Part shown: piece by piece, positions 13,664-28,723 of the stretch
Numbering within the stretch: position 1 is the first letter of the stretch
How the letters are laid out: each line of letters opens with the position of its first letter
Assembly: GCA_947467625.1 (NCBI GenBank)
Contig: CANIJN010000032.1
Location: 1 to 32,593, forward strand
From: Opitutia bacterium
GTDB taxonomy: Bacteria; Verrucomicrobiota; Verrucomicrobiia; Opitutales; Opitutaceae
Length of the DNA: 32,593 bases
Reading direction: 5' to 3'
Translations under genes and position numbers: made by a program
Notes under the pieces: generated by a model
Told to the model about the DNA's origin: nothing
Databases searched by the model: none
The model's input: only the letters and a program-made list of their open reading frames with translations

Positions 13664-14710
<1,047 letters not shown>

Positions 14711-15271: not shown

Positions 15272-16561
15272 TCACTTCCACTCCAACTCCGCGCCGAGGC
15301 TGCGGAGATTTTCGACGAAACGCGGGTGGGCGCGTTTGATGATTTCGGCGTTGCGCACGACGGAGCGGCCGGGGATCGCGGCGGCGACCATCGTCAACGC
15401 CACGGCGGCGCGGATGACGTAGGGCGAATCGACAATGGCGGGGCGGAGCGGGCGGTTGCCGAACACGACGATGCGATGCGGGTCGCTGACCATCGCGTGG
15501 GCCCCGAACTTCGCGAGCTCGGGAATCCACGAAAAACCGTTTTCATAAACCTTGTTCCAGAAATGGATCGTGCCCTCGGCCCGCGTGCTCAGCGCGATCA
15601 TCAGCGGGAGCAGATCGACGGAAAAGTACGGCCACGGCGCCGCCTCAATCTTCGGGAGTAAATTGGCGGTGAACGGCGCCTCGATCACGAGCTTCTGGCT
15701 GCGGCGCACGATGGCGGTGTCGCCCTCATGCTCGACGATGACGCCGAGTTTGGCGAAGGCGCGGGTAATGAGGTCGAAGTGATGCGGGAGGGATTTGGTC
15801 ACGCGCACTTCGCCACCGGTAATGGCGCCGAGGGCGAGGAAGGTGACAATCTCGTGGTAGTCGCTGCCGATGGTGATGGTCGCGCCGTGGAGTTTTTTTA
15901 CGCCGGTGACTTCGAGGCGGGAGGTGCCGAGGCCGGTGATTTTTGCGCCCATCGCGACGAGTGCGGCGCAGAGGTCCTGCACGTGCGGCTCGCTGGCGGC
16001 GTTCATGAGGGTGGAGCTGCCTTTTGCGAGGGCGGCGGCCATCGCAAAATTTTCCGTGACCGTGACCGACATGTAGTCGAGCCAGTGGCGGGCGCCCCGA
16101 AAGCCGGCGGGCAGAGCGATGACGAGTGGGTCGCCTTGGTGGACCGCGGCACCGAGGGCGCGGAGGATATCGAGATGGGGGTCGATCTCGCGCACGCCGA
16201 GCGTGCAGCCCTTGGTGTTGGCGTGGATTGTGATCTGGCGCAGACGGTGCAGCAGCGCCGGGTACAGCAGGACCGTGGAGCGCATGTCCTGCGGGAGTTC
16301 GTCGTTGGCGAGGGCGTTGCGAAACGTGGAGTGATCCACACGCATGACGCCCTTGTCGCGGTTCCACTCGATCTGCGAACCCTGGGCGCGGAAGAACGTG
16401 ACGAGTTTATCGAGGTCGGTGATGTCCGGAACGTTTTTCAGCGTGACGGGCTCATTGGTGAGCAGCGTGGCGCAGAAGATGGGCAACACGGAGTTCTTGT
16501 TGCCGGAGGGCGTGATGGTGCCGGAGAGGGGCTTGCCGCCGTTGACGATGAGGTCGGACAT
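15272..16561 (-). CDS. murA: UDP-N-acetylglucosamine 1-carboxyvinyltransferase MurA
   Basis: MurA transfers enolpyruvate from PEP to UDP-GlcNAc, the first committed step of peptidoglycan synthesis in the cytoplasm. The ATG at 16561 gives 429 residues, close to the usual 420; the open frame runs to 16669, but the extension would cross a terminator. Key residues are kept: Lys-Asn in SGNKNSVLP, Arg in DMRSTVLLYP, the active-site Cys119 in KGCTLGVREID (Cys115 in E. coli) with the following Arg, the general base Asp in FSVDLLPLM, and Arg in YVIRAAVAL. The Cys means fosfomycin sensitivity would be expected at this target. Overall sequence is rather divergent from proteobacterial MurA. It lies downstream of the terminator at 16606-16639 and is followed by the toxin-antitoxin pair. 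Confidence 0.9.
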   Translation of the reverse strand: MSDLIVNGGKPLSGTITPSGNKNSVLPIFCATLLTNEPVTLKNVPDITDLDKLVTFFRAQGSQIEWNRDKGVMRVDHSTFRNALANDELPQDMRSTVLLYPALLHRLRQITIHANTKGCTLGVREIDPHLDILRALGAAVHQGDPLVIALPAGFRGARHWLDYMSVTVTENFAMAAALAKGSSTLMNAASEPHVQDLCAALVAMGAKITGLGTSRLEVTGVKKLHGATITIGSDYHEIVTFLALGAITGGEVRVTKSLPHHFDLITRAFAKLGVIVEHEGDTAIVRRSQKLVIEAPFTANLLPKIEAAPWPYFSVDLLPLMIALSTRAEGTIHFWNKVYENGFSWIPELAKFGAHAMVSDPHRIVVFGNRPLRPAIVDSPYVIRAAVALTMVAAAIPGRSVVRNAEIIKRAHPRFVENLRSLGAELEWK

Positions 16562-16605: not shown

Positions 16606-16639
16606 ATGAAAAAGGCGTCCGTGAATCACGGACGCCTTT
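16606..16639 (-). terminator. Rho-independent terminator after the disordered-protein gene
   Basis: A perfect 13-bp stem, AAAGGCGTCCGTG / CACGGACGCCTTT, with a 3-nt loop is followed on the minus strand by a T-rich tail (TTTTTCATTTT). It lies between the stop of the minus-strand gene at 16683 and the murA start at 16561. It should end the upstream transcript and give murA its own promoter in the remaining short space. Confidence 0.88.
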
Positions 16640-16682: not shown

Positions 16683-17930
16683 TCAGATCGCGCCGCCGCC
16701 CTGTTGGCCTTCGGGACGCGGGCCGCGATCAGCGCGACCGCTGCCACCTTCGTCGCCTCGGGAGCGTCCGCGACCACCGCGGCGCCCGCGGCGTCCACCG
16801 CCGTCGGGTCGGCCTTCGCCGCGATACTCACCGCGGGAGCTGTCACCGCCGCCGTCGGACGGAGCGACTTCATCGCGGGGATCGGGGTGCTGGAAGTTCG
16901 GGTCGCGCGGACCCCGGCCCTGGCCGCGGTTACCGCCCCGATCACGTCCACGACCACCGCGGCCACCGCGGTTGCGTCCATCGCTGCCGTAGTCGCCCTC
17001 GCGGCTCGGCTCGCGACCCTCACCGGAGGCGGGAGCTGCGGGGGTTTTCTTTTTGCCGAAGAGGCCCTTGAGCCAACCGAAGAAACCACCGGATTTTTTC
17101 ACCGGTGCGGGTTCTTCCCGGCGCTCGGGACGGTCGGAGCGATCCGCACGTTCGCTGCGGCCGGAGCGTCCGCCCCGGTCTTGGTAGGGTTGGTTCGAGC
17201 GCGGCTCGAATTTGCGGTCGTCGCGGCGCGGCTCACGGGGAGCCCCGGAGTCGAAGGGCTTCGGCTCGCGGGTATCCGCGGTACGGGAGTCGACCGGACG
17301 GGTATCCCTATTCTCGCTGTCGCTGCGGCGGCCGCGTTCCGTGCGGAACGTTGGACGATCTTCGCGGCGGGTGGGTGGGGTGGCGGCGTCGCCGGCAGCG
17401 GCGGGCGCAGCTTCCCAGTTCACCGCGGCGCGTTTCTCGCCGCCTTGGGGCGGGAGAATGTTCAACGCGGGCTTCGGAGCGTCCTCGTTGCGTTTTTCGT
17501 CGCCGAACGGGAACAGGTCGGCGGTCTGAGCGGTTGCCGGTGCTGCCACTGGCGCGGCCACGGGTGCGGCCACGCGTGCGGGTGCGACTGCGACCACGGG
17601 GGCCGGAGCCGGAGGGGGGATGACGGGGGCGGCCTGGGGTGCAGGCTCGTTGACGACGGGCGCGCTCGCGGTGGTCTCACCGGTGAACGGGTTTACGTAT
17701 TCGCTCTTCGAGGTGATGACTTCGAGGGCGCTGGGTTTGAAGCCGCTGGAGGCGGCGGCACCGGCGGCAGGGGCCGCGGGCGGGGTGACACGTTTGCCAC
17801 GGTTGAGGCCGGAGCCTCGGGTGGAGCCGAACGTGCCGAACGGCTGGGTCGCGGCGGGGGCGGCACCGCTCGCCGCCTGGGCGGGAGCTGGGGCCGGAGC
17901 CGATGCGCCGGACTGATCTTGATCTGACAT
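16683..17930 (-). CDS. Disordered Pro/Ala- and Arg/Gly-rich (RGG) protein
   Basis: I do not recognise this as a named family. From the ATG at 17930 it is 415 residues and almost wholly low-complexity. Residues 1-180 are Ala/Pro-rich and weakly charged; 186-275 are packed with Arg, Asp and Glu; 278-295 form a compact basic-amphipathic patch (KKSGGFFGWLKGLFGKKK); 315-415 are Arg/Gly-rich with many RGG/RGR units. RGG tails commonly bind RNA and drive condensate formation, as in DEAD-box helicases and RNase E, and a Phe/Trp/Leu-Lys patch could anchor to membrane or protein; both are inferences. Predicted isoelectric behaviour differs sharply between segments. The frame is real: it has its own terminator and ends cleanly. 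It is divergent from the dUTPase gene. The long antisense frames here are compositional shadows. Confidence 0.75.
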   Translation of the reverse strand: MSDQDQSGASAPAPAPAQAASGAAPAATQPFGTFGSTRGSGLNRGKRVTPPAAPAAGAAASSGFKPSALEVITSKSEYVNPFTGETTASAPVVNEPAPQAAPVIPPPAPAPVVAVAPARVAAPVAAPVAAPATAQTADLFPFGDEKRNEDAPKPALNILPPQGGEKRAAVNWEAAPAAAGDAATPPTRREDRPTFRTERGRRSDSENRDTRPVDSRTADTREPKPFDSGAPREPRRDDRKFEPRSNQPYQDRGGRSGRSERADRSDRPERREEPAPVKKSGGFFGWLKGLFGKKKTPAAPASGEGREPSREGDYGSDGRNRGGRGGRGRDRGGNRGQGRGPRDPNFQHPDPRDEVAPSDGGGDSSRGEYRGEGRPDGGGRRGRRGGRGRSRGDEGGSGRADRGPRPEGQQGGGAI

Positions 17931-18135: not shown

Positions 18136-18507
18136 ATGGACAAACTCGAGGAAATCTTCCGGATGCAAGATGCGTTGAACCAGCGGATCGGCGTCAGCCT
18201 CCCGCCCCCGACCGACGAGGAGAAGGCCAAGTGGATCCTCAACTACACCCGCGCCATGCAGCAGGAAACGGCCGAATTGATCGACTCCGTGCCTTGGAAA
18301 TGGTGGGCGAAATACCAGAAATTCGACGAGCAGAACGCCAAGGTGGAGGTCGTGGATCTGTTTCATTTTCTCGTGTCGCTCGCCCAGACGCTCGGGATGA
18401 CGGCGGACGATGTTTACCAAGCCTACCTCAAGAAGAATCAGGTGAACCACCAGCGGCAGGACAGCGGCTACGCGAAGAAGGACGAGGCGGACTCGAAGCA
18501 CATCTGA
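18136..18507 (+). CDS. Dimeric (all-alpha, MazG-like) dUTPase
   Basis: The 123-residue product belongs to the all-alpha NTP pyrophosphatase group, most like dUTPase_2 enzymes that hydrolyse dUTP to dUMP and pyrophosphate, keeping uracil out of DNA. The two metal-binding motifs are visible: E44-T-A-E47 and E71-V-V-D74, followed by LFHFLVSLAQTLGM and the C-terminal NHQRQDSGY signature. The SVPWKWW segment after the first motif is also typical. I chose the ATG at 18136, giving MDKLEEIFRMQDALN; the frame is open back to 17929, but that part overlaps the divergent gene's start and is not conserved in character. The substrate could be another dNTP. A stem-loop with a short T tract follows at 18553-18582. 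Confidence 0.85.
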   Translation: MDKLEEIFRMQDALNQRIGVSLPPPTDEEKAKWILNYTRAMQQETAELIDSVPWKWWAKYQKFDEQNAKVEVVDLFHFLVSLAQTLGMTADDVYQAYLKKNQVNHQRQDSGYAKKDEADSKHI

Positions 18508-20434: not shown

Positions 20435-22831
20435 ATGTTGGAATTTTCCCGCCTACGTTTTCGTTGGCTCATCCTCTGTGGGTTGGTCGGGTTTGGTGCC
20501 ATCTGGCTCCACGAGCGACGCCCGCCCGCGCGCCGGCCGGACGGCGTGGCTAGCGGCCGCGCGGCCACTCCCGCAGCGCCGAGCTCCGTTTTATCCACTG
20601 CGGTCAGTGACGCTCCGCCGGCCTTCGCGCGAGGAGTGCTATTTGCCGCGATCGCGCCGCCTCCGACCGTGCTCGCCGCGCTCGACGCCGCGCTGCCGGC
20701 TCCGAGCCGCGCGGTCCATTACGTGCGCGTAAATAAGGCTTGGCTCGCTGGCAAGTCCTCACCGTTTTGGCAGCGTCCGGGGGAAGGGCGGGTTACCTGG
20801 CCCCTGCCGGATGGACGCGTGCTCACGGTCGTGATCGAAGCCAGCGAAATGCTCGGGTCGGATCGGTTCACTAGTACCGGACATCTCGCAGGTCGGCCGT
20901 CGAGTCGGGCGATTTTTGCGTATAACGAAGGGTTTCTCCACGCCACCGTCGACGACGCTGAACAGGGCGTGCACGTCCTGCGGGTGGCGACGGCCGAGCT
21001 TTCCCAGTATTATCAAGTGGATCCGGCCCTCGTGCCGCCCTGCGGAGGCGAACGTCGGAAGGTGGTTGACGGAGCGGTGCTGATCGCGGCGCGCGAGCGG
21101 CAGGCGCGGGCCGCCGCACTCGCCTCGGCCGCGCAGCCAGCCGATCCCTCGGCCCCCAGCGAGCTGCCGGAGCGCGCCGGGGCGGTCGCAGGAAACCCGC
21201 AGAGCGTCGAAGTGCATGTGATGATGGCCGTGACGCAACAGGTGCTGTCCACGCTCGCGGGCGCGCAGCGCACGGCAGCATTGGTGAGTGCGTTTGATAC
21301 CTCCATCGCGCGCGTGAACCGCGATCTCGCCGCGAGCCTCGTCACGGCGCGGGTGAAACTCGTGAAGGTGGCGGAGACGACTTACGACGAGACGAAGAGC
21401 ACGGGCAACAAAGTGCAGGACGAGGCGCTCACGGCGTTGCAAGGTACGGCCGACGGGCAGATGGACGAATTGCATGCGCTCCGCGACCAGTCCGGTGCGG
21501 ACCTCGTGTGCTTGGTGCTCAACCGGTCTGATTTTTCGAGCAGTGGTCTCGCGTTCGTGATCGACACGCCCGGCGATACGACGAACGCCCTGTTTGCATT
21601 TTCCGTCGTCCAGTATTTTTCGGTCGCGGGCACGAGCGTCATCGCGCACGAATTTGGCCATTCGTTTGGGTGTGCGCACGATCGGGAAAACGCCTTCGTC
21701 CCCGGAGCGTATAGCTACAGTTATGGCTATCGATTTTTTGGTGCCGACGGCGTGCGCTACCGCGACATCATGGCCTATCCGCCGGGCATCGAGCTCGGGT
21801 ATTTTTCCAACCCGAGCATCATCGCGCCGGCCCCCATCAACGTGCCCGTCGGCTTGGCCGAGGGGCGTGCGGGAGAATCCGATTCGGCGCGCACGATCGA
21901 GCAGGCGGCCTTCGAGGTCTCGACGTATCGCCTCCAGACCCAGACGAAGCCGAGCCTCGGCACTCTCGTGAATGTTTCCACGAGTGCCAGTGTCGGGCCG
22001 GGCGAACGCGCGGTGATCGCCGGCTTCACGGTCGAGGGCAGCCAGCCCAAAGCGATGCTGGTGCGGGCCGCGGGACCGGCTCTGGCGGCCTTCGGCGTGC
22101 GCGCGCCGCTGGCCACACCGGTGCTTGAGCTTTACGCGGGTCCGCTGCGATTGGCGGAAAATTCCGGTTGGTCGGCCCAGCCGGGCGCGGCGGCGGTCTC
22201 GGCGGCGGCGCTGCAGGCGGGCGCGTTTCCCTTTGTCGCCGGCAGCGCCGACGCCGCGCTCCTCCTGACCCTGCCGCCGGGTGGCTACACGGCGGTCGTG
22301 AGTAGCGAGTCCGCCACGGGCGTGGTGCTCGTCGAGGCCTACGAAAGCGGTCCTGATGCGGGGCGTATCGTAAATCTCGCGACGCGGGCCTACGCCGATA
22401 ATCGCGGCCGCCCCATCGTGGCTGGTTTCGTGGTGCGGGGCTCACCCGCTGCGACCAAACGTGTGTTGGTGCGGGTGCGCGGACCGTCGCTGGCGCGGCC
22501 CCCGTTCAATGTGCCCGACGCCATGGACGATCCCTTTATGGAGATCCGCAACGCTGCGGGGCAACTGATCCTGCGCAACGACGACTGGAGCACGGGCGCG
22601 GCCGGCGGGGCGAGCGAGGAGAACGACTTCACGCCGCTCGTGCGTTATTACCATGAAAAACAATTCGTCGCCACGGGCCTCGCGCCCGCCAACCGCCGGG
22701 AACCCTGCCTGATGGCCGATCTGCCGCCCGGGAGTTACACCGTGATTGTCATGCCCTTCGAGTTACTTCCGGACGAACCGGCGCGGCCGGGAGTGGCGCT
22801 CGTGGAAGTGTTCGAAATTGGCGGACCCTAA
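20435..22831 (+). CDS. Secreted reprolysin-like zinc metalloprotease with two C-terminal beta repeats
   Basis: The 798-residue protein is a metzincin protease. An N-terminal membrane segment (residues about 10-25, WLILCGLVGFGAIWL) suggests export or anchoring. A pro-region of roughly 240 residues follows. The catalytic domain carries the zinc site H405-E-F-G-H-S-F-G-C-A-H415-D and the Met-turn IMAYP (Met446), as in reprolysin/M12B-type and pappalysin-like enzymes. The C-terminal part holds two related repeats starting near residues 511 (LVNVSTSASVGPGERAVIAGF) and 643 (IVNLATRAYADNRGRPIVAGF), a beta module common at the ends of Opitutales extracellular proteins. It may serve as surface attachment or secretion module. 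Target proteins are unknown. It is followed by a 700-bp gap before nirK. Confidence 0.88.
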   Translation: MLEFSRLRFRWLILCGLVGFGAIWLHERRPPARRPDGVASGRAATPAAPSSVLSTAVSDAPPAFARGVLFAAIAPPPTVLAALDAALPAPSRAVHYVRVNKAWLAGKSSPFWQRPGEGRVTWPLPDGRVLTVVIEASEMLGSDRFTSTGHLAGRPSSRAIFAYNEGFLHATVDDAEQGVHVLRVATAELSQYYQVDPALVPPCGGERRKVVDGAVLIAARERQARAAALASAAQPADPSAPSELPERAGAVAGNPQSVEVHVMMAVTQQVLSTLAGAQRTAALVSAFDTSIARVNRDLAASLVTARVKLVKVAETTYDETKSTGNKVQDEALTALQGTADGQMDELHALRDQSGADLVCLVLNRSDFSSSGLAFVIDTPGDTTNALFAFSVVQYFSVAGTSVIAHEFGHSFGCAHDRENAFVPGAYSYSYGYRFFGADGVRYRDIMAYPPGIELGYFSNPSIIAPAPINVPVGLAEGRAGESDSARTIEQAAFEVSTYRLQTQTKPSLGTLVNVSTSASVGPGERAVIAGFTVEGSQPKAMLVRAAGPALAAFGVRAPLATPVLELYAGPLRLAENSGWSAQPGAAAVSAAALQAGAFPFVAGSADAALLLTLPPGGYTAVVSSESATGVVLVEAYESGPDAGRIVNLATRAYADNRGRPIVAGFVVRGSPAATKRVLVRVRGPSLARPPFNVPDAMDDPFMEIRNAAGQLILRNDDWSTGAAGGASEENDFTPLVRYYHEKQFVATGLAPANRREPCLMADLPPGSYTVIVMPFELLPDEPARPGVALVEVFEIGGP

Positions 22832-23534: not shown

Positions 23535-25052
23535 ATGAAAATCCAATGCCTCCTCCCGCGGGCCACCGCCGCTCTTGCTCTCTTGCTCGCGGGCCTCGGC
23601 GCGCTGGCCACGGTGGCCCGCGCCGCTGAAGGCACGGCGGTCGCCAAACCCGGTGGCGCGCCCATCGCCGCCGAACTCCCGCTCGAAGTCGCCGTGCTCA
23701 CCCGCGCGCCGAATGTTCCCCTGCCGATCAGCCGCAAGTATCCCGCCAAGGTCGTCGTGAATCTCGAAGTGAAAGAGGTCACCCAGCGGCTCGCCGACGG
23801 CGTCGACTATACCTTCTGGACGTTTGGCGGCGAAGTTCCCGGGCTCTTCATCCGCGTGCGCGAGGGCGATGTCGTCGAGTTCCACCTCAATAATCACCCG
23901 AGCTCGAAAATGCCGCACAACATCGACCTTCACGCCGTCACGGGTGCGGGGGGTGGCGCGGCCTCGTCCTTCACGGCGCCCGGGCACTCGTCGCAATTCA
24001 CGTTCACCGCACTCAATGCCGGGCTGTACGTTTATCACTGCGCCACGGCGCCGGTGCCGATGCATATCTCGAATGGCATGTATGGTCTGATTTTCGTCCA
24101 ACCCAAAGAGGGCCTGCCGCCCGCGGACCGCGAGTATTACGTGATGCAGGGCGACCTCTACACGCAGGGTGCGACCAATGAGTCGGGCCTCCAGGCATTC
24201 GATAATGTGAAGGCCATGGACGAACGTCCCACGTATGTTGTGTTCAACGGATCGGTCGGCTCGCTCGTCGGCGACAAGGCACTCCAAGCAAAAGTCGGCG
24301 AAGTCGTGCGCCTCTACTTCGGCGTGGGCGGCCCGAACCTGACGTCGTCGTTTCACGTGATCGGCGAGATTTTCGACCACGTCTGGACGGAGGGCGGGAT
24401 GAAACACGTGCAGGAAAACGTCCAGACCACGCTGGTGCCCGCGGGTGGCTCGGTGATTGTCGATTTCAAAGTCGAGGTCCCGGGCACGTTCATCCTCGTC
24501 GATCACTCGCTCTCGCGCGCTTTCAACAAAGGCGCGCTCGGCATGCTCAAGGTTACGGGTCCGGAGAATCGCCGACTCTATTCAGGCAAGGAGATCGATG
24601 AAGTTTACCTCGGCCAGCAGTCCGCCGCCGGCTCGGCCGCGAGCACGCGCGAGGCTCAACTCGTCGCCCAAAAAGCCGAGGCCATCGCGAGGAATCCCGA
24701 GATCGCGAACCTCACGAAGGACATTCAACTTGAGCGCGGGAAAAAGGTTTTCCTTTCCGCGTGTTTTGCCTGCCACCTCCAGGAAGGGCAGGGGCTCCCC
24801 GGCGTCTTTCCTCCGCTCGCGGGCTCGGACTATCTGCACGCGGACAAAGAGCGTGCCGTGCGTACGGTCCTGAAAGGCCTCAACGGTCCGATCATCGTCA
24901 ACGGCAAGCCGTATAACAACGTCATGCCGCCGCAGGAGTTCACCGACGACCAAGTGGCCGACGTGCTCACCTACGTGATGAACACCTGGGGCAACTCCGA
25001 TGGCACCGTCTCGGCCGATGAAGTGAAACGCATCCGCCGCGCGGGGCAGTAA
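23535..25052 (+). CDS. nirK: Copper nitrite reductase NirK with C-terminal cytochrome c domain
   Basis: NirK reduces nitrite to nitric oxide in the periplasm. The 505-residue protein has a signal peptide (about residues 1-31), two cupredoxin domains and a fused class I cytochrome c. Type 1 copper ligands are His128, Cys169, His177 and Met182; type 2 ligands are His133, His168 and His324; the catalytic pair is Asp131 and His274. The spacing in [18 protein letters not shown], one residue shorter than in Alcaligenes-type enzymes, places it with the AniA-like class. After residue 375 a linker leads to C410-F-A-C413-H414 and a probable axial Met464 in NNVMPPQ. Such a tethered cytochrome, known from Ralstonia pickettii and Pseudoalteromonas enzymes, feeds electrons to type 1 copper. 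It is first in a cluster with nirV and sco. Confidence 0.97.
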
Positions 25053-25192
25053 CCCGGCAAACACAAAAATCAGTGAACCGCTCATCCCCGCTCATCAGAA
25101 TCTCCGCAGCCACCACCACCGTCCGTGGTTCGTCGATTGGGCGAAGCCCGCAGCCGTCCGCGTCTTTCCGCGACGCCGACTGCTTAACGAAG

Positions 25193-26029
25193 ATGAACGG
25201 TTCACCCCTGAAGCCCATGTTCTCCCGCTGCCGCTACGGCTTCGCCACGCTGACGCTCATGCTCGCCGTAGGTGTCGCGGCATTACGTTCGGAGGTTGCC
25301 GCGCCACCCGCGCCCGCCGGCACGGTGGTCATTCCCGCCGGCACGTACGCGCCGCTCATCCGCTCAAAGGATGAGCCCGAACGCAGCCCGGTGGCGGCGT
25401 ATTACCTCGACGAGCGGCCGGTGACCAACGCCGAGTTCCTCGCCTTCGTGCGCGCCCTTCCGCAGTGGCAACGCTCACGCGTGAGCCCGCTCTTTGCCGA
25501 TGTCGGCTACCTGGCCCACTGGGCCGGCGATACCGCGCTCGGTGCACTCGGGCCGGCGGAGGCCCCGGTGGTGCGGGTATCATGGTTCGCGGCACGCGCC
25601 TATGCGGCCTGGGCGGGGAAACGCCTGCCGACGACTGCCGAGTGGGAGCGGGCCGCCGCCGCGGGATTCACGACGGCGGATGGCGCGACCGAGCCGGGCT
25701 TCCCAGCTTATGCCTTGGTGTGGTTTTCTCGGCCGACGCCGGACACGCTGCCGGTCGTCGGGTTGGGTCGGCCGAATGTCTACGGCGCCCGGGATCTGCT
25801 GTCGCTCGTGTGGGAGTGGGTCGACGATTTTAACACTGCAATGGTCTCCGGAGAATCGCGCGGGGACACCGGCTTGGAGCGCACGCTCTTTTGCGGCGCG
25901 GGAGCCGCCGGCGCCCGCGACCTCACCAACTATCCCGCCTTCATGCGCGCCGGACTCCGCAGCTCGCTCCGCGCCAGCTACGTCGTGCCAAACCTCGGTT
26001 TTCGCTGCGCCCAATCGATTTCACCATGA
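25193..26029 (+). CDS. nirV: NirV-like formylglycine-generating-enzyme-fold protein
   Basis: NirV is a FGE-sulfatase-fold (SUMF1-like) protein often encoded directly after nirK; its role is not settled. The product from the ATG at 25193 is 278 residues (a second ATG at 25217 is equally possible) with a signal or anchor segment (FATLTLMLAVGVAAL). Family features are VVIPAGTY, DERPVTNAEFLAFV, APVVRVSWFAARAYAAWAGK, RLPTTAEWERAAAAG, SLVWEWVDDF and the closing NLGFRCA. Of the two cysteines used by true formylglycine-generating enzymes, only the first (LFCGAGAAGA) is present, so cofactor-type oxidation of sulfatase Cys is unlikely. The stop overlaps the sco start by 4 nt (ATGA). It lies 140 nt after nirK and is probably co-transcribed. 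Confidence 0.85.
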   Translation: MNGSPLKPMFSRCRYGFATLTLMLAVGVAALRSEVAAPPAPAGTVVIPAGTYAPLIRSKDEPERSPVAAYYLDERPVTNAEFLAFVRALPQWQRSRVSPLFADVGYLAHWAGDTALGALGPAEAPVVRVSWFAARAYAAWAGKRLPTTAEWERAAAAGFTTADGATEPGFPAYALVWFSRPTPDTLPVVGLGRPNVYGARDLLSLVWEWVDDFNTAMVSGESRGDTGLERTLFCGAGAAGARDLTNYPAFMRAGLRSSLRASYVVPNLGFRCAQSISP

Positions 26030-26910
26030 AAACAAAATTCGCCGTCGTGCTTCTCGCTCTGCTCATGGTCTCCCCGGACGGGAGCCTACTGGCAGGCGAT
26101 TTCGCCGAGCCATCGCGTGGCGGCACGCTCCTACCCACGGCCGTGCCGAATACCGGCTGCTGTGCAGCAGCGACGGTGACCGCGGCGAAAGGCGCCACGC
26201 CCTGCTGCGCCGTCGTCGAGGAAAAATCCTGCTGCGATCCACTGCCCGCGGGCGCGCCGCTCTCCGCCCGCTCGCTTTATCAACTCGACGCGACTTGGAC
26301 CAACGATGTCGGCGAGCCCGTGAAGCTCGCCTCGCTCCGTCGTCAGCCCGTCGTTGTAGCGATGTTTTTTGCCAGCTGCGAATATGCCTGCCCGGTCCTC
26401 GTCAGCGATCTCCAGCGGCTCCGCGCCGCGTTGCCGGCGTCCGTTCGTGAGCAGACGCGTTTCGTGCTCGTGAGTTTCGACACCGTGCGGGACACCACGG
26501 CGGTGCTGGCCGCGTATCGGGCGAAACGCTCCCTCGACGCCGGCTGGATTCTTCTGCGGGGGCAGGCGAGGGACGTGCAGGATCTCGCGATGCTGCTCGG
26601 CGTAAACTACAAGCAGGACGCCCGCGGTCAGTTCGCCCATTCCAATCTCATCACCGTGCTGAATCCTGCGGGAGAAATCGCGCACCAACACCCCGGACTT
26701 CAGGGCGACATCTCCGAGGCGGCGCAGGCTGTGGTGGCGGTGGCGATACGGGCTTCGGTCGCGGCGAAGGCGTCGCCCGACCTGCCGCCGGCGATCGACC
26801 GCACGGTCATCATGTCGCGCGAGGTGATCCCGCTCGAACCGCGGTGGGACCAGGTTCGCGCTGCGCCGGAGGTCGTGCCGGCGCAGAAGGCAGCCCCCGG
26901 GAAGAAATGA
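26026..26910 (+). CDS. SCO1/SenC-type copper chaperone
   Basis: SCO proteins are periplasmic thioredoxin-fold proteins that deliver copper, best known for the CuA site of cytochrome oxidase. The 294-residue product has a signal peptide (MKTKFAVVLLALLMVSP), the copper-binding C118-E-Y-A-C122-P motif and the third ligand His205 in AHSNLITVLNP. Its start overlaps the nirV stop by 4 nt, fixing the start codon and tying it to the nirK cluster, so a role in loading copper into NirK is the natural inference. Unusually, three Cys-Cys pairs (residues 45-46, 60-61, 69-70) lie between the signal peptide and the fold, which might hold additional copper. The C-terminal tail after residue 250 (ATP-free, Pro/Lys-rich) is disordered. 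Confidence 0.88.
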   Translation: MKTKFAVVLLALLMVSPDGSLLAGDFAEPSRGGTLLPTAVPNTGCCAAATVTAAKGATPCCAVVEEKSCCDPLPAGAPLSARSLYQLDATWTNDVGEPVKLASLRRQPVVVAMFFASCEYACPVLVSDLQRLRAALPASVREQTRFVLVSFDTVRDTTAVLAAYRAKRSLDAGWILLRGQARDVQDLAMLLGVNYKQDARGQFAHSNLITVLNPAGEIAHQHPGLQGDISEAAQAVVAVAIRASVAAKASPDLPPAIDRTVIMSREVIPLEPRWDQVRAAPEVVPAQKAAPGKK

Positions 26911-27066
26911 AGGCCCCGGAACACCGCTGAACCCTCAATCAACCGAACTCGCCGCGCTGATTTTTCTAGGGTCGGCGCTCGCCGCGTGCCGCTGACATCC
27001 CTTCGCCTTACGCCCTTGCTCGCCGAGGCGCGCAGGCCCGTCCTTGCCTTTGCAGGCCGCGCTCGC

Positions 27067-27083
27067 GTTGATCGTGGTTCAAC
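27067..27083 (+). promoter_or_regulatory. Short palindrome just before the sulfatase start
   Basis: GTTGA-N7-TCAAC lies 9 nt before the ATG at 27092. It resembles an FNR half-site pair, but the spacing is one base too long (TTGA-N7-TCAA instead of N6). It might be an operator or a small hairpin near the ribosome binding region; neither is demonstrated. Confidence 0.25.
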
Positions 27084-27091
27084 CCATCCCC

Positions 27092-28723
27092 ATGAAATTA
27101 TCCCTCGGTCTGTTGGCTGGTCTCCTTGTGGTTTCGACGCTTTCGGCGGCGCGACCCAATATCATTGTCATCCTCGCCGACGATTTGGGCTACTCGGATC
27201 TCGGCTGCTACGGAGGCGAGATTGCGACGCCGAATCTCGATGCACTCGCGGCAGGCGGGCTGCGGTTCACGCAGGCTTACAACACCGCCCGCTGCTGGCC
27301 GTCGCGCGCGGCGGCGATGACCGGCTACTACGCCCAGCAGGTGCGACGCGATGTTGTGCCCGGGATCGCGAGCGGCGGCGGCAACCGCGGCATCCGTCCG
27401 GCGTGGGCGCCGCTCCTGACCGAGTTTTTGCGCCCGGCCGGTTATCGGAATTATCACTCGGGCAAATGGCACATCGACGGCCGTCCGTTGGGCAACGCCT
27501 TCGACCACAGTTTCGAAATTGGCGGCGGCCAGAGTAATTTCTTCAAAGCTTCCGGTAATACCGACGACGGGGTACCGAATGTGCAGACGCCCGACTACTA
27601 CGTCACCACGGCGACGGCTGATCACTCGGTGAAATATCTACAGGAGCACGCCGCGAAGTTCGGCGGGCAGCCGTTCTTCCATTACCTGTGTTTTACTGCG
27701 CCGCATTTTCCGTTGCACGCACCGGCAGCGGACATCGCAAAATATCGCGACACTTACGGCCAGGGTTGGAACGCGATTGCGGAGGCGCGTTACGCGCGGC
27801 AGAAAAAAATCGGGCTCGTCACTCATGCGCTGCCCCCGATGGAGCGCGAGATCGGCCCGCCGTATTCGTTTCCTGACGACATCGCGAAGCTGGGGCCCGA
27901 CGAGGTGAACCGCCCTCTGCCGTGGAGCGAGCTCACGAGTTCACAGCGGGCGTTTCAGGCCGCGAAGATGGCGATCCACGCCGCGATGGTCGACCGCATG
28001 GACCAGGAAATTGGCCGTATCATCGCGCAGCTGAAAGCGATGGGGGCTTACGAAAACACGCTGATCCTCTTCGCGTCCGATAACGGCGCGAGCGCCGAAA
28101 TGATGGTGCGCGGCGACGGCCACGACCCAGCGGCGCCGATGGGTTCGGCGAAAACGTTTCTCTGTATCGGCCCCGGTTGGTCGAGTGCGGCGAACACCCC
28201 GTTCCGCCGTCATAAGACGTGGGTGCACGAGGGCGGCATCTCGACGCCGCTGATTGCGCACTGGCCCGCAGGCATTGCCGCCCGTGGGGAACTGCGCCGC
28301 AGTCCGACCCACTTGATCGATATTTTGCCCACGGTGCTGGAGCTCGCCGGGGTGAAGATCCCGACCGAGATCAAGGGCTTTCCGGTGCCGCCGTCTCCGG
28401 GCCGGAGTTTTGCGGCGGCGCTCAAACAGGACGTCGCCGTCGCGCATGATTTTCTTTGGTGGGAACACGAAGGGAACCGCGCGATTCGGGCCGGCGATTG
28501 GAAACTCGTGACGGTCAAGCAGGGCGAGTGGGAGCTCTACAATCTCGCCCGCGATCGCGGTGAGTCGGAAAATCTCGCCGCGAAAAATCCCGCCAAAGTG
28601 CGCGAGCTGGAGGCGAGGTGGACCCAGCACCTAGAGGAGACGATGACGCTCGCGCTGTCTGCTCCCGCGAAGGACGTGCCGGCTCCCGCGGCGAAAAAGG
28701 GGAAACGTGCGCAGCAGGACTGA
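27092..28723 (+). CDS. Type I sulfatase (formylglycine-dependent)
   Basis: This 543-residue exported enzyme belongs to the S1 (arylsulfatase) family, which removes sulfate esters from carbohydrates or other substrates. The ATG at 27092 begins a clear signal peptide (KLSLGLLAGLLVVSTLSA); an earlier start at 27044 is less likely. The metal-binding N-terminus RPNIIVILADDLGYSD is intact, as is the modification motif C68-W-P-S-R72 followed by AAAMTG, so Cys68 should be converted to formylglycine. Further motifs are HSGKWH, TAPHFPLHAP, FASDNGAS and KTWVHEGGISTPLIAHWPAG. The Lys-rich tail is disordered. The substrate is not predictable. The cytochrome/sorbosone-dehydrogenase gene follows after 12 nt, so the two form an operon. 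No formylglycine-generating enzyme with both cysteines is in the window. Confidence 0.93.
   Translation: MKLSLGLLAGLLVVSTLSAARPNIIVILADDLGYSDLGCYGGEIATPNLDALAAGGLRFTQAYNTARCWPSRAAAMTGYYAQQVRRDVVPGIASGGGNRGIRPAWAPLLTEFLRPAGYRNYHSGKWHIDGRPLGNAFDHSFEIGGGQSNFFKASGNTDDGVPNVQTPDYYVTTATADHSVKYLQEHAAKFGGQPFFHYLCFTAPHFPLHAPAADIAKYRDTYGQGWNAIAEARYARQKKIGLVTHALPPMEREIGPPYSFPDDIAKLGPDEVNRPLPWSELTSSQRAFQAAKMAIHAAMVDRMDQEIGRIIAQLKAMGAYENTLILFASDNGASAEMMVRGDGHDPAAPMGSAKTFLCIGPGWSSAANTPFRRHKTWVHEGGISTPLIAHWPAGIAARGELRRSPTHLIDILPTVLELAGVKIPTEIKGFPVPPSPGRSFAAALKQDVAVAHDFLWWEHEGNRAIRAGDWKLVTVKQGEWELYNLARDRGESENLAAKNPAKVRELEARWTQHLEETMTLALSAPAKDVPAPAAKKGKRAQQD

Follow-up and report, generated by a model that had tools for sequence, protein, structure and literature searches.

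The minus strand of the window (the whole stretch of 32,593 nucleotides that was analysed, from an Opitutia bacterium of the family Opitutaceae, whose members live in soil and water) carries a gene for a disordered 415-residue protein, here called P0001, set between a divergent dUTPase_2/MazG-like gene and the pair murA and ruvB (Table 1). The coordinates and length given for the gene in the initial annotation were correct, and the strand is added here. Both strands of GC-rich coding DNA are often open, and at this high-GC locus a 407-codon ORF (407 aa; 16704-17927, plus strand) also lies opposite the gene. The minus frame is the gene because pairwise comparisons gave a dN far below dS there and a dN above dS in the mirrored antisense frame; the antisense ORF was therefore rejected as a high-GC shadow. 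Within the genus, dN/dS was 0.25 over the whole minus frame and 0.09 over its conserved motifs, indicative of purifying selection (dS 0.55 and dN 0.14 for the whole frame against a same-genus homologue, and dS 0.49 and dN 0.04 for the motifs). A search with the whole protein returned no Pfam, NCBIfam or PDB match, an Rfam search over the locus returned nothing, and no paralogues of P0001 were found in its own genome. The gene is real, and its conservation and architecture are established.

Table 1. Features of the P0001 locus, in window coordinates.
Feature	Position	Strand	Details
P0001 gene, 415-aa disordered protein	16683..17930	-	ATG at 17930, TGA stop 16685-16683; translation, homologues, dN/dS
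Motif 1, residues 34-47	17790..17831	-	consensus FGxxRGSGLARGKR; G39, G41, L42, R44, G45, R47 invariant in 44 aligned homologues
Motif 2, residues 64-85	17676..17741	-	consensus YxPTAIEVITxxxEYKNPFAPE; P66, F82 invariant; Y64, Y78, N80, P81 >=90%
Motif 3, residues 153-173	17412..17474	-	consensus KAELNILPPxExxRPAQSWE; I158, L159, W172 invariant; L156, P160, P161 >=90%
Motif 4, residues 188-202	17325..17369	-	consensus RRxxRPxFRPERRDxR; two alignments
Membrane-targeting-sequence-like patch, residues 278-295	17046..17099	-	KKSGGFFGWLKGLFGKKK; AF2 helix, amphipathicity, profile match to RNase E segment A / MTS
Predicted helix, residues 283-291	17058-17084	-	sole helix in AF2 model
RGG / Arg-rich tail, residues 296-415	16686..17045	-	candidate RNA-binding region; 31% G, 21% R
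Arg box 1, residues 320-329	16944..16973	-	family consensus RRRHRGGRGR; alignment
Arg box 2, residues 380-392	16755..16793	-	family consensus RRRRRGGRGRxRG; alignment
Predicted intrinsic terminator between gene and murA	16611..16639	-	13-bp stem, U-rich tail
murA (EPSP synthase family), syntenic downstream neighbour	15272..16561	-	Pfam PF00275, E 8.8e-60
ruvB, second syntenic downstream neighbour	13664..14710	-	Pfam RuvB domains
Divergent dUTPase_2 / MazG-like gene, syntenic upstream neighbour	18136..18507	+	PF08761, E 2.8e-24; start inferred from onset of homology

Distribution and genomic neighbourhood

The single P0001 sequence matched 49 of the 61 sampled Opitutaceae genomes at E<=1e-3, a family profile picked up 7 of the 12 remaining genomes (E<=1.2e-6), and a broader profile matched genome G012 (1.9e-26), such that about 57 of 61 carry the gene by one or other of these means. 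We also scanned 84,980 genomes with two peptide patterns from the alignment, followed by tblastn with the window protein, and kept the best 80 loci. Seventy-two of these 80 belong to Verrucomicrobiota, with labels that are mostly Opitutaceae or Opitutae, and 8 are proteobacterial.

Synteny with murA and the dUTPase gene, a check proposed in the initial annotation, turned out to be stable: 47/48 family loci have murA downstream in the same orientation, and 34/48 have the divergent dUTPase_2 gene upstream, where some flanks are short. Among the named loci of the genome scan, murA was present in 69 of 72 and the dUTPase gene in 61 of 72. Other families of the order have a gene of the same build at the same place, beside the dUTPase gene and murA or ruvB, with changed motifs. 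The promoter and terminator scan of the locus yielded nothing noteworthy except the terminator ahead of murA; the number of predicted terminator sites did not exceed that in shuffled sequence, and the stem at 16611..16639 is long and well placed. Given this predicted terminator, the gene and murA are probably not one operon, and the neighbourhood is probably a stable address instead. The murA copy itself is 60-90% identical to that of the window in most of the family. At the same spot in other lineages (L068, L072, L073, L077, L203-L208) it is 32-37% identical, as if murA had there been swapped in place for a different copy.

Protein architecture and likeness to the RNase E scaffold region

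By regional composition, P0001 consists of an Ala/Pro-rich segment (1-120), a mixed R/D/E region (121-277), a K/G/F/L/W patch (278-295) and a G/R-rich tail (296-415), which is the order first annotated. No folded domain had been recognised in it, in agreement with the empty domain searches and with an AlphaFold2 model (44 homologues) that has no domain and predicts disorder (mean pLDDT 46.4) everywhere but in a single helix at 283-291. The homologue alignment revealed a few short conserved stretches in an otherwise freely varying protein; the counterpart of motif 4 in divergent relatives reads VQEFRPSRD at a comparable place. These motifs matched no known PNPase, helicase or enolase site, and P0001 has no catalytic or docking domain that would tie it to RNA decay. 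Docking sites for PNPase, RhlB and enolase differ even among proteobacteria (PMC11964227). The tetrapeptide RPTF, which the E. coli PNPase site also has, was rejected as a PNPase-type docking motif, being found in only 15/48 members and 0/9 divergent ones.

The patch is highly conserved among homologues, appearing in the alignment as KKSGGFFGWLKGLFGG, and its pattern has a single match in the window's whole 5.6 Mb genome. No other 11-residue window of the protein is as hydrophobic and amphipathic, in any of the 48 family members or of the divergent order-level relatives tested; distant families have other letters there (e.g. GLLASILSIFG, GFMGAVKKFFSSLFG) of the same character. Together with the modelled helix, this supports a candidate amphipathic membrane helix at the patch. 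A phylum-level match in genome G286 was identified by eye as a D-Ala-D-Ala carboxypeptidase-like protein and set aside as a chance match. The RGG tail is likewise present as described, with two conserved Arg boxes, and R324, G325, R327, R329, R384, G385 and G386 are conserved in the 44 aligned homologues. Thus both the patch and the tail, on whose conservation in relatives the proposal had been staked beforehand, are conserved. P0001 is likely tethered to the membrane, and it is just as likely to bind RNA.

All 8 loci outside Verrucomicrobiota among the best 80 of the 84,980-genome scan are RNase E, from Cupriavidus, Rhodoferax, Comamonas, other Burkholderiales and Colwellia; one of the 8 genes is truncated at the end of its contig. 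The matching frame in Colwellia starts just before the helix, and the assignment there is by a typical RNase E C-terminal half alone. The matched region is the membrane-targeting sequence (MTS) and the Arg-rich stretch that follows it, e.g. SGGFFGWLKSLFGG. With a 20-residue profile of the patch only, RNase E ranked top in each of 7 proteobacterial genomes (E 6.8e-8 to 4.1e-4; next E>=2), which speaks to specificity and not sensitivity, as these genomes were picked because their RNase E had already matched; in the window's own genome, the same profile found this gene only. Read by eye, E. coli RNase E has the same order of elements, namely an A/P-rich segment, GLLSRFFGALKALFSGG and an Arg-rich region, and its element at residues 565-582 ends GLLSRFFGALKALF. 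Those residues are the experimentally defined MTS, and residues 604-644 are the RNA-binding region AR1 (PMC4435900, PMC4372235); the MTS has been described as restricted to beta- and gamma-proteobacterial RNase E (PMC4435900).

P0001 and the noncatalytic C-terminal region of proteobacterial RNase E share disorder, compositional bias, an A/P-rich lead-in and short motifs (PMC4435900, PMC4372235, PMC11964227), and in both an amphipathic helix with a bulky hydrophobic face and basic flanks precedes an Arg-rich region. At the level of sequence, the patch has the short helix, aromatic face and basic flanks of an MTS, and the Arg boxes lie distal to it, as AR1 does. The matches outside Verrucomicrobiota uphold the resemblance to the scaffold region of RNase E, as opposed to an enzyme, whereas the likeness to DEAD-box helicase tails that had also been suggested found no support, P0001 having no helicase domain and its tail no DEAD/helicase core to sit on. 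Unlike the RNase E region, P0001 is encoded by a separate gene in Opitutales of Verrucomicrobiota, free-standing in all relatives read; it has neither the S1 and DNase I-like catalytic domain nor the Zn-link of RNase E (PF10150), and its motifs resemble no known PNPase, RhlB or enolase docking site of that enzyme. Common descent is not claimed because the helix is so short (about 11 residues); the likeness to the MTS may equally reflect convergence on a common way of touching membranes. By membership P0001 is not RNase E, and by working it is the closest counterpart of the RNase E scaffold found outside RNase E.

The window's genome has one Rne/Rng-family enzyme, a scaffold-less protein of 599 aa that has its own gene, on contig C60, and matches the RNase G model almost from one end to the other. 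Among 77 genomes searched, all RNase E/G matches not cut by a contig end measured 543-669 aa from stop to stop; the 30 that were read end 88-95 residues past the Zn-link motif, and none has an MTS-like helix. As read from these sequences, the RNase E/G of this lineage is catalytic-only, lacking a C-terminal half and a membrane helix. For the Chlamydiae/Verrucomicrobia group, RNase E/G of 510-554 aa was listed as unlikely to form a degradosome owing to its shortness (PMC3071783). The P0001 gene could supply the missing scaffold part to RNase E/G in trans. Strict complementarity between the two genes was rejected, since other Verrucomicrobiota classes have a short RNase E/G with no detectable copy of the P0001 gene. 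Accessory function in trans, the idea proposed here for P0001, is known from chloroplast RHON1, which partners RNase E and has its own gene; RHON1 bears no relation to P0001 and, unlike it, contains a folded Rho-N domain. No description of a scaffold of this kind as a separate gene was found in the open-access literature, most subscription journals being outside the scope of the search.

Proposed role and alternatives

We propose that P0001 is a free-standing disordered scaffold that is tethered to the membrane, binds RNA and acts in trans in the manner of the RNase E noncatalytic region, a reading to which we assign a probability of about 0.5. The lysine-flanked amphipathic helix at 283-291 would lie on the inner face of the cytoplasmic membrane, the adjoining Arg/Gly tail would bind RNA, mRNA or polysomes, and folded partners would dock on short linear motifs within the first 200 residues, so that RNA turnover would be concentrated at the membrane. 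Speculatively, the likeliest partners would be the cell's own catalytic-only RNase E/G and/or either PNPase or a DEAD-box helicase. A role in a degradosome is plausible; that RNase E/G or other enzymes of RNA decay dock on P0001 is put forward tentatively, and it is with still more reserve that we suggest that Opitutales have an RNA degradosome at the membrane whose scaffold and ribonuclease are products of separate genes, in effect a split RNase E.

In two other lineages of the same class (G100, G064), a patch-like helix was also found on small proteins that combine a true RRM domain with a basic stretch. The RRM proteins at L067:1081-1821(-) and L252:1189-1767(-) carry an RNase E/FtsA-type amphipathic helix beside the basic stretch, which suggests that they are membrane-bound. 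As in P0001, a basic or RGG stretch adjoins GLLGWLKKLFG or AAWLKSLFGG, but they have a folded RRM domain and P0001 does not; RRM_1 was found neither in P0001 nor anywhere in the window's genome, and a search of viral contigs for an RRM-plus-helix protein returned none. As the helix is seen with RNA-binding parts in RNase E, in the RRM proteins and in the P0001 family, the two are coupled in at least three settings. A weaker match of the patch profile (E 0.1) fell at the extreme C-terminus of FtsA, the site of the known FtsA membrane helix. The FtsA of a same-order relative (G148; L253:307-1542(+)) ends KGFLPWLKSLFRF, very like the P0001 patch. Both helices are short, amphipathic and of the same type; FtsA is otherwise a folded actin-like protein, and its likeness to P0001 is limited to the anchor, at E 0.1. 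The match fits the reading of the patch as a membrane anchor.

The RRM proteins bear on a rival account, in which P0001 is a membrane-tethered RNA-binding protein that scaffolds no degradosome and instead localises mRNAs or polysomes to the membrane or acts there as an RNA chaperone, as a membrane-bound counterpart of bacterial RRM/RGG proteins. In two other lineages of the class the same helix is indeed joined to an RRM without any ribonuclease part, and the window's genome has no RRM protein of its own; however, the conserved motifs at 34-47, 64-85 and 153-173 suggest protein docking beyond RNA binding, and the architecture matched is that of RNase E. We consider this account unlikely, though it deserves more weight than one in which P0001 serves the envelope or the nucleoid, as a disordered, polycationic and membrane-bound protein that binds DNA or anionic lipids and functions in cell division or peptidoglycan synthesis. 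The very stable synteny with murA and ruvB and the similar profile match to the FtsA-type membrane helix would suit such a factor, but the predicted terminator stands between the gene and murA, and elsewhere the gene stays where murA is a very different copy or was not found at that spot, so it does not follow murA; this makes an envelope or nucleoid role improbable. That the protein is a low-complexity spacer or a high-GC artefact with no specific function, as its strong composition bias and the two open strands might suggest, has a negligible probability in view of the conserved motifs, the synteny, purifying selection in the minus frame only and homologues throughout the family.

A short RNase E/G has so far been taken to mean that no degradosome forms (PMC3071783); if the scaffold reading is true and a scaffold can have a gene of its own, enzyme length may greatly understate how common degradosomes are, and RNA decay would have come to be placed at the membrane a second time, in a different phylum. 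A scaffold gene could also be deleted cleanly, such that the effect of membrane tethering on RNA decay would be separable from the catalytic enzyme.

Elsewhere in the window, adjoining genes at 23535-28723 encode a multicopper oxidase/cytochrome c protein, an FGE-sulfatase-type protein and a sulfatase, likely a sulfatase cluster, and the 798-aa product of the gene at 20435-22831 has an M12B reprolysin-like metallopeptidase domain.
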